Below, piece after piece: positions 31,150 to 39,183 of a DNA stretch of 39,183 bases. A program made the position numbers and the translations under genes. The stretch spans positions 3,892 to 43,074 of the forward strand of contig JAHDFR010000020.1 in NCBI GenBank assembly GCA_020628065.1, in the 5' to 3' direction. The notes beneath the pieces were generated by a model. The model was not told where the DNA came from and made no database searches. It saw only the letters and a list, made by a program, of their open reading frames with translations. The DNA comes from Acidimicrobiales bacterium (GTDB lineage: Bacteria; Actinomycetota; Acidimicrobiia; Acidimicrobiales; SZUA-35). Each line of letters starts with the position of its first letter. The stretch's first letter is position 1.

Positions 31150-32268
31150 CTACGAGCCGTCGACGGGAACAATCCCGGAGGGCTGCCAGAACCCACCGCC
31201 GGGGAAGAAGGTGGTGTAGTCGGCCGGGAACGAAGTGAAGCCGGGGAGCACGTCGAGGTTGCCTCCGGTTCCCGAGACTTGAACACCGCGATCGGCGGTC
31301 CAGGTTCCGGAGCCGTCGGTTGCCTCCAGCTGGTCGCCGGATCGTTGTAGCTCGACGGTTCGTCCGTCTACCTGACGGGAGAACACCGACCAGGTGTCAT
31401 TGGCGTCGTCAACGGTGACGGCTACGGCTACGCCTCCGATATCGGCATTGGCCACTCCGGCCGCTCGAACATCGGTGGCCGGGAAGGCCAGCGAGTCCGG
31501 TCCGAATTCGACCACGATGGCCATCTGTTCCAGCTCGAAGCCGTTGATTCGTGCCGGCGCGTCGAGGGCCACTGTGTCGGGGTGAAGCTCGACCCAGTCA
31601 CCCCACTTCGTGAGTGATGAGGGCAACAGCTCCAGTCGGGTTCCGGTCAAGGGGCCCATGATCGCTTCACCTATTGGTTGGCTCCAGACGCTGCCGGTTT
31701 CGTGATCGAACCAGGTCATGGCGTTGCCCCACAGGTCACCCTGGTTGCCGAGAACGATTGGCTGTCCGTTTACTTCTCGGCGATGAACCATCGCCGTGCC
31801 GCAAAGCGGTCACCAGGAGACGAATGTTGGGATACCCCTGTGCATGTCGACCACGATTTCCCGCCTGATCAGGAACCCGACCGGGTAGGCCCGGGCGTCG
31901 CCGTCGATTTCCACTCCGATGATCAGTTCGTCACTGGGCCAGTCGGTGTTCTCCACCGTGCGGAACTCGGGCGTGTACACCGGGAAAATGCCGTCGCGCG
32001 GTATCGACGGGCGGTAGCCGGCCGGGGCGGGCTCACCGGCCGATACCGGGTCGTACAGGTCGGAAGCGAAGTTGGCACTGACCCCTTCCCAGCCGTCGGG
32101 GTGGAAAGAGTCGTCGGAGCTTCCGGGGCCGCTTTGGTCGGGAACGAAGACGACGACGGCGATCACGGCCAGTCCGGCGAGCAGGGCCGACACGGTGGCC
32201 AGGGACAAAAACCGACTCGAACGTTCGGTCGGATACTGATCCGCCTGGTGGGTCGAGGTTGGCTCCAC
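31150..32268 (-). CDS. DUF3179-like membrane-anchored protein with in-frame TGA (31810-31812) at a CxxC position; candidate selenoprotein
   Basis: ORFs 31810-32268 and 31150-31791 are in one frame separated only by TGA: …GIPTFVSW[TGA]PLCGTAMVHRREVNGQPIVLGNQGDLWGNAMTWFDHETGSVWSQPIGEAIMGPLTGTRLELLPSS. N-terminal TM helix; GTG start. Confidence 0.75.
31778..31796 (-). promoter_or_regulatory. Candidate bacterial SECIS hairpin downstream of the in-frame UGA
   Basis: On minus strand UGA-N13-CGGCGAUG-GUU-CAUCGCCG: perfect 8-bp stem, apical loop GUU starting at +22 after UGA. Confidence 0.6.
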
Positions 32269-32358
32269 GGTGGTTGAACCTCTGGTGTGGTCGCTGCTAT
32301 TCCCGCTAGCGACACGGCCGGCTCAGATCAGGTAGCCGGCGCTAGCGTTGGAGTCCGA

Positions 32359-33450
32359 ATGATGATGTGGCTGCAATTTCCGTTCGCCGACTTGGGCTCG
32401 TTCGTCAGTGCCGGTTTTCCGTTGGGGTTGGTGCTGACTGCGTTTGCGTTCGGTGTGCGCCACGGGTTCGACTGGGACCACATCGCCGCCATTTCCGATC
32501 TCAGTGGGTCGGCTGAAAGTCGTCGACGCGGGTTCTCGCTGTCCATGCTGTATGCCGTGGGGCACGCCGCAGTGGTTTTGGCCATTGGCGTGGTCATCGT
32601 GTTGGCCGGTTCGGCCATCCCTGAGGGTTTCGCCCAGGCGTTGGACCAATGGATGGGTCGGGTTGTGGGCGTTACGTTGGTAGCACTCGGCCTTTGGATC
32701 ATCGTTGAACTTGTCCGCAAGGGACGGGACTTCCGCCTGCAGAGCCGATGGATGCTGGTGCTCAAGGGGACCTTCGCCGGTTTCCGGCGGGTTCACCGCT
32801 CGATCGACCCGGCGACCCGGCGATCAGCCCGCCATCTTGAGGTTGAGCACGATCATGAGCACGATCATGAGCACGGACACAGTGACGGTGCTCATGATGA
32901 TGTTCAGGCCCACGATCATGATCATCTCGACCAGTCGGGTGCCTTCGATGTGGTTGAGGACCGCCCCCTGGTCGGGGTCAATGCCGCAGCCGAATCGGAG
33001 CTCGGCGCGGATTCGCCCCGTTGGGTTTCAGGTTGGTTCGGTGGTCGGCACGGCGGCTCACACTCGCACCCTCATTCACATTCACATTCACATTCGCACT
33101 CACACTCACACCGGCATCGGATGTCGTTGGGTGACGTGGGCGGTGGTGCTGCTGTGGGTATTGGTGTTCTCCACGGGGTGGGGATTGAGAGCCCCACACA
33201 GATCGCATTGTTCACCGCTTCGGCGGCCGTGGGTCAGGGCGTCACCGCTTTTGCTCTGCTCATGGCCTGGGTTGTCGGCTTGGTGGTGGCCAATGCCATC
33301 TTGGCCGTGGTCGCCGGCTTCGGTCTGCTGCAAGCCGAACGGTACTTCACGGTTTATGCCGCGGTGGCAGTGACCGTCGGTCTACTTAGCGTCGTGATGG
33401 GTGCCGCCCTACTAGCCGATGTGGAGCTACCGCTTCCCGAACTCAACTAG
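32359..33450 (+). CDS. NiCoT/NicO-like nickel/cobalt transporter with two His-rich loops
   Basis: FGVRHGFDWDHIAAISDLSG; polytopic; EHDHEHDHEHGHSDGAHDD and HSHPHSHSHSHSHSHSHRH. ATG 32359 preceded by TTGGAG. Confidence 0.78.
   Translation: MMMWLQFPFADLGSFVSAGFPLGLVLTAFAFGVRHGFDWDHIAAISDLSGSAESRRRGFSLSMLYAVGHAAVVLAIGVVIVLAGSAIPEGFAQALDQWMGRVVGVTLVALGLWIIVELVRKGRDFRLQSRWMLVLKGTFAGFRRVHRSIDPATRRSARHLEVEHDHEHDHEHGHSDGAHDDVQAHDHDHLDQSGAFDVVEDRPLVGVNAAAESELGADSPRWVSGWFGGRHGGSHSHPHSHSHSHSHSHSHRHRMSLGDVGGGAAVGIGVLHGVGIESPTQIALFTASAAVGQGVTAFALLMAWVVGLVVANAILAVVAGFGLLQAERYFTVYAAVAVTVGLLSVVMGAALLADVELPLPELN
33061..33116 (+). repeat. CAYTCR hexamer repeat encoding (HS)n
   Basis: CACTCGCACCCTCATTCACATTCACATTCACATTCGCACTCACACTCACAC. 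Confidence 0.9.
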
Positions 33451-34886
33451 GGGAGAAGCTCCTGCGCCAGGCTCAGCTGGTCAGGAGTGAATTCCCCGTA
33501 CGTCGAGTTGCTGGGTGAGCCGACCCACAGTCGGGCTACCGCTTCGGCGAAGTCGCCGGCACCGACGCTGAAGTCGTTCAGCCCGTCACCGGCCCACCAG
33601 ACGGCGGGCATGTCCCGGGCCTCGATCCATTCGGCTCGTTCGGAGCCGCCGAAGTGGGTGACGTCGATGGCGTGTCCCAACTCGTGGGCCAGGATTTCGG
33701 CTATGGAGCCCGGAGTGTCGTCATCGTCGACATAGATTTCGATGGATCGGGTTTGCGGGAACGTGAGTCCTCGGTACCCGGGTCGGTCGGTCAGGTAACT
33801 GACTCTCCAACCGGGGAGCACGGCGCGCCAGTCGTAGCTGATTAGTGCTTCGGCCTCGACTCCGAGGGTGGTCGGATCGGTGGCCGCCAGCTCGGTCGGC
33901 GCATCCGCCTGCCTTTCGATCGTTCGCTCCGTTGACTCGTCTACCGATTCACTCACCGATGTTTCGTCTGCTGATTCTTGTATTGCATCGTTTGACTGTT
34001 CGCTGGCTGACTCCCCGTTTGGCCGGGTTGGCTCTTGGGTCGGAGCACCAGACGATCGGGCTTGGATGGCCTGCTCGGTTGTTGTTCCGGTTCCCGATCC
34101 GTCGGTGGTTGAGGCGGTGGACTGACGGGACTCGACGATGACAGTGGTGGGGAACGATGGTGCCTCGATCAGCTGCTCGGCTGCCGGCCGGGCGCCGTCG
34201 GCCCCGACAGTCGTTTGAGATCCGACGATCTCGTCGGGAGAAACCGACGAGATCACAAACGAACCGACAACCGTGGCCGCTACCAACAGCCCGCAGTTCG
34301 GTATAAGGAAGCGGCCGATAAGCGAACGGGTCCGGCTGTCGACCGACTCGTCCAACATGAGCTGCGCCAGCCGGCGCTCGAGCTTGGCCAGCTCAACCTC
34401 AAGGGACTCGCCCAAAACGGCGATGTCGTCGTCGCGAATGGACAGCTCGCTACCCGGCTCGACTCCTCTGAGCAGGTACAGCAGCGAGAGATACCGTTCG
34501 AGGACGGCGTCGACCAGCTGGTCGCCGGACAGCGGGCCGGTTGTGCCTCCGATTTCGAAGCTTTGGCTGCCGACCGCCAGGCGTCGCCCGGGCAGATCAA
34601 CAATCAGTTTGTTGTTGCGTTCAGCCGACACCGATCCAGGTTCCAGGTTGTACAACTCGACGAGCTGCTTCGCCACCGGGTCGGTGAGAAGCACCAAACC
34701 TTGTTCGGCCCGGCTGAGGTAACCGGAGGTGAAGCCACCGTCCGATTGTCGGGCCAGTTCGTCGAGTTCAAGTCCCCGTTCGGCCCGTTTCGATTGCAGC
34801 AGAGCACCGAGTCGATCAGCCGAGATCAGGGAGGGTTTGGTGTCCTGATCGGACTGTGTCGGGCTAAGGGGAGGGGAGGATGTCAT
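33447..34886 (-). CDS. XRE-like HTH - TM - extracytoplasmic HExxH metallopeptidase fusion (paralog A)
   Basis: RLGALLQSKRAERGLELDELARQSDGGFTSGYLSRAEQG HTH; PNCGLLVAATVVGSFVISS TM; EILAHELGHAIDVTHF and GDFAEAVA. ATG at 34886 rather than 35144, because the N-terminal extension is out-of-frame sequence of the neighbour. Confidence 0.8.
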   Translation of the reverse strand: MTSSPPLSPTQSDQDTKPSLISADRLGALLQSKRAERGLELDELARQSDGGFTSGYLSRAEQGLVLLTDPVAKQLVELYNLEPGSVSAERNNKLIVDLPGRRLAVGSQSFEIGGTTGPLSGDQLVDAVLERYLSLLYLLRGVEPGSELSIRDDDIAVLGESLEVELAKLERRLAQLMLDESVDSRTRSLIGRFLIPNCGLLVAATVVGSFVISSVSPDEIVGSQTTVGADGARPAAEQLIEAPSFPTTVIVESRQSTASTTDGSGTGTTTEQAIQARSSGAPTQEPTRPNGESASEQSNDAIQESADETSVSESVDESTERTIERQADAPTELAATDPTTLGVEAEALISYDWRAVLPGWRVSYLTDRPGYRGLTFPQTRSIEIYVDDDDTPGSIAEILAHELGHAIDVTHFGGSERAEWIEARDMPAVWWAGDGLNDFSVGAGDFAEAVARLWVGSPSNSTYGEFTPDQLSLAQELLP

Positions 34887-36030
34887 TAAGCAGATCCAGT
34901 TGGTCGGGGGTGAACTCGCCGAAGTTCGAGTTGCTGGGGGAGTCCACCCAGGAAGCGGCGACTGCCTCGGCGAAGTCGCCGGCGCCCACGCTGAAGTCGT
35001 TGAGGCCGTCACCGGCCCACCAGACCATTGGCATGTCCCGGGCCTCCAGCCATTTGATGCGGTCGTCGTCTTCCATGTAGGTGACGTCGAGGGCATGCCC
35101 GATTTCGTGAGCCAGTACGCCGGCCACGTCTTCGGCGCTGGCACCGCGGTCGATGTAGATCGTGATCGACTTGGTGGGCAAGTGGGTCATGCCTTTGTAT
35201 CCAGCGCTGTCGTCTTCGTATTTGACCGTCCAGTCGGGTAACAGCGATTGCCAGTCGTAGCTGATCATCGATTCGGCTTGAGCCCCGATTTCGGCCAGCT
35301 CGGCTCTCGACACCTGGTTCGCGTTCGAAGTCACGGTTATCGACTCGCTCTGAGTGTCTTCACTGAAAGCGGCGGAGACCGCTTCGCTCTGAAGACTGGG
35401 GTTGCCGATGGTGTCGCTGCCGAGTCCGCTGACGATTACCAGCGACCCGAGGGACATGGCAGCCACCAACAACCCGGCGCTCGGTACCAGATAGCGCTTG
35501 AGGATCGACTTGGTTCGGTTGCTTACCGATGGGCTGAGCATGAGCTCGGTGAGCCGCCGTTCGATCATCTCGATCTCGGCGGTCAGCGAACCGGAGAGAA
35601 CAACGAGGTCTGGTTCCCGTAGCGGCAGTTGGCTGCCGGGGTCCACCTGGCGGAGGATGTACAGCAGGGACAGGTACCGCTCGAGAATGTAGTCCACCTG
35701 GGTTTCGTATGTCTTGCCTCCCTCCGTTGAGGAAAGCTCGATGACGTCTCCACCAACAGATAGTTGCCCGCCGGGCAGGTCGAGTACCAGCTCGCTGGTT
35801 CGCTGGTCCATGGTCTGTTCCTGGACTCCGTAGAGGAGCGCCAGCCTCTGCATGGTCTGGTCGGCCAACGGCACCCGACCTTTCTCCACGATCGAGAGGA
35901 ACTCTGGTGTGAACTCACCGTTGGAACGGCGGGACAGTTCATCAAGATCGGCGCCCTGTTCGGACCGATGGGTATTGAGGAGAGCGCCGAACCGCTGGGT
36001 TGGCACCGGGGAGAGCACGGTCGAGGTCAT
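34864..36030 (-). CDS. XRE-like HTH - TM - extracytoplasmic HExxH metallopeptidase fusion (paralog B)
   Basis: RFGALLNTHRSEQGADLDELSRRSNGEFTPEFLSIVEKG; VPSAGLLVAAMSLGSLVIVSG TM; GVLAHEIGHALDVTYM; GDFAEAVA. Confidence 0.8.
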   Translation of the reverse strand: MTSTVLSPVPTQRFGALLNTHRSEQGADLDELSRRSNGEFTPEFLSIVEKGRVPLADQTMQRLALLYGVQEQTMDQRTSELVLDLPGGQLSVGGDVIELSSTEGGKTYETQVDYILERYLSLLYILRQVDPGSQLPLREPDLVVLSGSLTAEIEMIERRLTELMLSPSVSNRTKSILKRYLVPSAGLLVAAMSLGSLVIVSGLGSDTIGNPSLQSEAVSAAFSEDTQSESITVTSNANQVSRAELAEIGAQAESMISYDWQSLLPDWTVKYEDDSAGYKGMTHLPTKSITIYIDRGASAEDVAGVLAHEIGHALDVTYMEDDDRIKWLEARDMPMVWWAGDGLNDFSVGAGDFAEAVAASWVDSPSNSNFGEFTPDQLDLLNDILPSP

Positions 36031-39022: not shown

Positions 39023-39183
39023 ATGGCCAAGGAAAAGTTTGAGCGTAATAAGCCTCACGTGAATGTGGGGACGATGGGTCACATCGACCACGGGAAAACA
39101 ACGTTGACGGCGGCGATTACGAAGGTGTTGTCGGACCGGGTTGAGGGTTCGAATGCTACGGCGTTTGAGGATATTGATAAGGC
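39023..39183 (+). CDS. tuf: Elongation factor Tu, 5' part (truncated by window end)
   Basis: [40 protein letters not shown]1 motif [19 protein letters not shown]. Confidence 0.97.

Follow-up and report, generated by a model that had tools for sequence, protein, structure and literature searches.

An in-frame TGA in a DUF3179 gene of an Acidimicrobiales bacterium very probably encodes selenocysteine

A DUF3179 gene with an in-frame TGA

We analyzed a 39,183-nucleotide stretch of an Acidimicrobiales bacterium genome (assembly GCA_020628065.1, contig JAHDFR010000020.1, positions 3,892 to 43,074; hereafter the window) and found a minus-strand gene in which an in-frame TGA very probably encodes selenocysteine (Sec), which would make the product a true DUF3179 selenoprotein. 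This reading, drawn from sequence comparison, follows from conservation of the TGA at one alignment column, Cys at that column in sister and outgroup proteins, a SECIS-type hairpin, Sec machinery in the genome and selection past the TGA. DUF3179 with a UxxC/T motif is catalogued as a selenoprotein family (PMC9312934 Table 1; PMC13188914), and the initial annotation was therefore wrong to suppose that it is not a standard one; the source cited there is Zhang and Gladyshev 2007, for a deltaproteobacterial symbiont of Olavius algarvensis. The window gene shares the Pfam domain and UxxC arrangement of the catalogued family. It belongs to a large, mostly Sec-containing clade of Acidimicrobiia (Actinomycetota) and Chloroflexota with its own conserved SECIS hairpin. 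The family is thus already known, if little studied, and for these lineages we found no earlier report; full-text literature searches returned none on Acidimicrobiia selenoproteins, and DUF3179 was named in only three of the papers searched.

The initial annotation had described a minus-strand frame open except for one TGA, and reading from 32268 to 31150 confirms a 372-residue product with its sole in-frame stop in the local context GIPTFVSW-U-PLCGTAMV (Table 1). The read-through product scores 172 bits against Pfam DUF3179 (PF11376; gathering cut-off 27 bits) with both flanks of the TGA aligned. As had been proposed from the motif alone, the TGA occupies the first Cys of C-P-L-C in DUF3179 homologs, and U153, P154 and C156 are invariant across 54 diverse sequences, with Sec or Cys at position 153. 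Downstream of the TGA, dN/dS is 0.14–0.29 between the window gene and six orthologs, and ~0.15 against its nearest relative, by which measure this part of the protein is under strong purifying selection. Selection 3′ of the TGA, and its placement at the motif's invariant first Cys, show that the in-frame TGA is not a chance occurrence. A PDB sequence search with the protein gave no real match, no NCBIfam model was found for the Sec-rich clade, and a search of viral contigs found no relatives.

Table 1. Features of the DUF3179 locus, in window coordinates
Feature	Position	Strand	Description
Putative Sec-containing DUF3179 gene	31150..32268	−	GTG start at 32268 with AGAGG upstream; TAG stop 31150-31152; 372 residues
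In-frame TGA, predicted selenocysteine U153 of U153-P-L-C156	31810..31812	−	Sec-TGA or Cys in all homologs checked
Predicted SECIS hairpin, CGGCGATG-GTT-CATCGCCG	31778..31796	−	8 bp stem; 3 nt loop, first base G; TGA-to-loop distance 21 nt
N-terminal hydrophobic segment, probable membrane anchor	32140..32205	−	Residues ~22-43; Kyte-Doolittle maximum 2.7, residues 24-42
Beta repeat 1, carries U-x-x-C	31549..31941	−	Residues ~110-240
Beta repeat 2, homologous to repeat 1, without U-x-x-C	31165..31539	−	Residues ~244-368; hhalign 99.6% probability, E 8e-23
Divergent neighbor, NicO-type nickel transporter-like membrane protein	32287..33450	+	His-rich loop; beside DUF3179 in the two nearest relatives

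Putative selenocysteine and cysteine alternate at one column

Relatives with TGA at the same column, which the initial annotation had proposed to look for, number about 80. Within the clade the column is TGA in 80 copies and TGC or TGT in 7, counting the two copies of the window's genome, a ratio that does not represent a random DUF3179 sample, as one of the two scan patterns (NAMTW[WF]D) is typical of the Sec clade. The 80 loci came from a scan of named genomes and derive from Acidimicrobiia metagenome-assembled genomes, Chloroflexota (Dehalococcoidia, Anaerolineae, Caldilineaceae) and a few genomes labeled Acidobacteria, whose loci fall within the Acidimicrobiia branch of the tree. Random other stops in relatives had been named as a sign of plain gene decay; in 149 genomes from this order, TGA accounts for all in-frame stops within DUF3179 matches, with no TAA or TAG, and no other stop type appears at the column.

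Whole-genome search of the window's genome recovered three DUF3179 proteins with Cys and two with a single TGA. The second TGA copy is a paralog on contig C6 (6044-7129, minus strand) reading IVVTW-U-PLCATAMVHRRE, with its TGA in the same column. Cys-type proteins from the same genomes (YCPLCN and YCTLCG types) share the domain and the CxxC column with the Sec gene but carry TGC or TGT in place of TGA and form separate tree branches; outgroup DUF3179 proteins likewise have Cys at this position.

The main Sec clade has a tree support of 98 and contains both phyla. The Sec/Cys distribution needs seven changes on the tree, several of which are Cys arising within the Sec clade, as in two tandem Cys-Cys-Sec triplets (L164 and L168) and a Cys/Sec pair (L125). 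In the triplets, both from Chloroflexota, three DUF3179 genes lie side by side and the two Cys copies lack the hairpin. In L125 (3920-6052) the adjoining Cys copy still has it, as a recent conversion of Sec to Cys would predict. A distant DUF3179 branch (loci L061, L062 and L063; genomes G097, G129 and G055) also carries TGA in this column, within Y-U-[VGA]-[VI]-C-SSGVGF, followed by a different hairpin at an unchanged distance from the TGA.

A conserved hairpin follows the TGA

In 62 genes a hairpin begins 16 nt past the T of the TGA, with the form CGGCGATG-GTY-CATCGYCG or a paired variant. Its positions pair in 99.6% of 496 pair cells, two stem pairs show compensatory changes (L147, L162 and L167), and shifting the partner strand by 1–3 columns lowers pairing to 14–56%. 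Synonymous codon choice in the stem is fixed (ACG 60/60, GCG 58/58, CAT 59/59, CGC/CGT 59/59) compared with ~30, 27, 30 and 41% for the same choices elsewhere in these genes, and the covariation score was equaled by none of 500 shuffles, although the sequences are related by descent and both codon and shuffle counts overstate independence. Unlike the stem, the loop codon varies between GTC, GTT and GTG. In Chloroflexota Cys copies the His codon is CAC in 4/4.

The published bSECIS model specifies a stem of 4–16 bp, a loop of 3–9 nt with G in the first two loop positions, a spacing of 16–37 nt and a minimum free energy of at most −7.5 (PMC13188914). The window hairpin conforms to it, with 8 bp, the 3 nt loop GUU, 21 nt and −11.7 kcal/mol; in the Chloroflexota form, with a 6 bp stem and a loop of 8 nt, G first appears at loop position 3, narrowly beyond the model. 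We rejected the hairpin as stand-alone evidence for Sec because, of the 1220 TGA triplets that the window contains, 45 (3.7%) are followed by one at least as long. Comparison across the family strongly supports a mechanism in which SelB, bound to the hairpin past the UGA, would deliver selenocysteine to position 153.

Selenocysteine machinery and further candidate selenoproteins

The search for Sec machinery proposed by the initial annotation succeeded for selA and selB, adjacent on contig C89, and for selD, on contig C14 with its own TGA at the catalytic Cys position (GAG-U-ACK), but not for tRNA-Sec (selC), which was absent from the window's assembly by Rfam family search, BLAST with a relative's gene and a degenerate pattern. 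The assembly is fragmented into 432 contigs and ~95% complete, so that a gap is the simplest reason. A clear tRNA-Sec with anticodon TCA is present in 9/10 relatives searched; it was likewise not found in relative G072, which retains a Sec-type selD. The sigma factor that neighbors selC in two relatives was located in the window's genome with no tRNA-Sec beside it. Among 149 genomes of the order, selA occurs in 8/8 that have a TGA copy of DUF3179, which is consistent with Sec use but not discriminating because most Cys-only genomes also carry selA.

Elsewhere in the same genome as the window, an active-site TGA interrupts another nine thioredoxin-fold frames (L193-L201; contigs C353, C264, C263, C4, C261 twice, C277, C107 and C364). 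They include peroxiredoxin-like TPG-U-T, TlpA-like WFWAPW-U-PTC and relatives, and AhpC/TSA-like DW-U-PYC types; together with selD and the two DUF3179 genes they bring the number of candidate selenoproteins in this single actinobacterial genome to at least 12. One TlpA-like frame (L200; C107:8500-9500) has two TGA codons in WFWAPW-U-PH-U, a possible U-x-x-U motif, and is followed by a hairpin, CTGCGGTCGCAG, in common with L195 and L201.

Predicted structure and proposed envelope function

An AlphaFold2 model built with 54 family sequences (pLDDT 88.7) has an N-terminus that is modeled at low confidence and includes one hydrophobic segment, followed by two similar beta repeats whose origin by internal duplication is confirmed by profile comparison (Table 1). 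The U-x-x-C motif is in repeat 1 only, with U153 at the end of a strand. A membrane-anchored Sec protein had been predicted at the outset; the single hydrophobic segment, a probable anchor, agrees with this, and the product is probably an extracytoplasmic, membrane-anchored DUF3179 selenoprotein. Foldseek placed Rieske [2Fe-2S] ferredoxins (PF00355) first (probability 1.00, marginal E 4e-3, TM ~0.5–0.6 by target length), but the Rieske cluster ligands CxH and CxxH are absent from the conserved DUF3179 columns. Profile comparison did not establish Rieske kinship (repeat 1 at background; repeat 2 at E 0.015 versus 0.16–0.24 for controls), and only the structural resemblance was kept.

Within the cell envelope, U153 and C156 would most likely work as a selenenylsulfide/thiol redox pair, with a thioredoxin/CcdA-type system of the envelope restoring their reduced state. 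We infer such an envelope selenenylsulfide protein from the placement of U-x-x-C in the model, the invariance of U153, P154 and C156, the N-terminal segment and nearby redox genes, and consider the redox-pair mechanism likely. Close to DUF3179 there are DsbD_TM/CcdA genes at 5-6 loci and genes for TlpA-like redoxins at 3-4; these loci are a minority, and the window is not among them. The window itself also holds, at 33447-36030 on the minus strand, two adjoining and mutually similar HTH_31 helix-turn-helix proteins kept in the two nearest relatives, and, at 39023-39183 on the plus strand, the beginning of an EF-Tu gene truncated where the contig stops, which explains a weak selB match there.

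Alternative explanations

The single in-frame stop and the missing selC might suggest a pseudogene created by nonsense mutation, or a sequencing error. Independent genomes in two phyla share this TGA in ~80 genes, the region past it is under strong selection and the hairpin is conserved; as every relative would need the same error, this explanation is refuted, and we give it practically no weight. Some termination is usual at Sec codons, and the TGA could accordingly serve programmed termination, or be read as an ordinary amino acid, with an N-terminal fragment as the main product. This too is very improbable given Cys in all non-TGA homologs, a SECIS-type hairpin and machinery specific for selenocysteine, and strong selection on the C-terminal part.

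The main rival to the redox pair accepts the same selenoprotein and supposes that U153 and C156 bind a metal or metal cofactor with no redox cycling. The NicO-type metal transporter-like gene next door and the Rieske iron-sulfur proteins at the top of the fold search fit this idea, and the UxxT variants listed in reviews suit a two-residue redox pair less well. We nevertheless consider metal binding unlikely, as the Rieske ligands are absent, H189 is not invariant, and U-x-x-C is the usual Sec redox arrangement (PMC9312934).

Implications

Taken as a selenoprotein, the DUF3179 gene offers a clean example of a coding-region RNA element that fixes synonymous codons and of Sec-to-Cys changes accompanied by decay of that element. 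Standard gene callers split the gene at the UGA, and the family is therefore likely mis-annotated in many environmental genomes. The data point to Acidimicrobiia as heavy selenium users. More tentatively, and with the whole conjunction rather doubtful, Acidimicrobiia may be an overlooked selenoprotein-rich lineage in which DUF3179 is an envelope protein with a double Rieske-like fold that has no Fe-S ligands and uses a selenol-thiol pair, with Sec ancestral in the clade and later returns to Cys.
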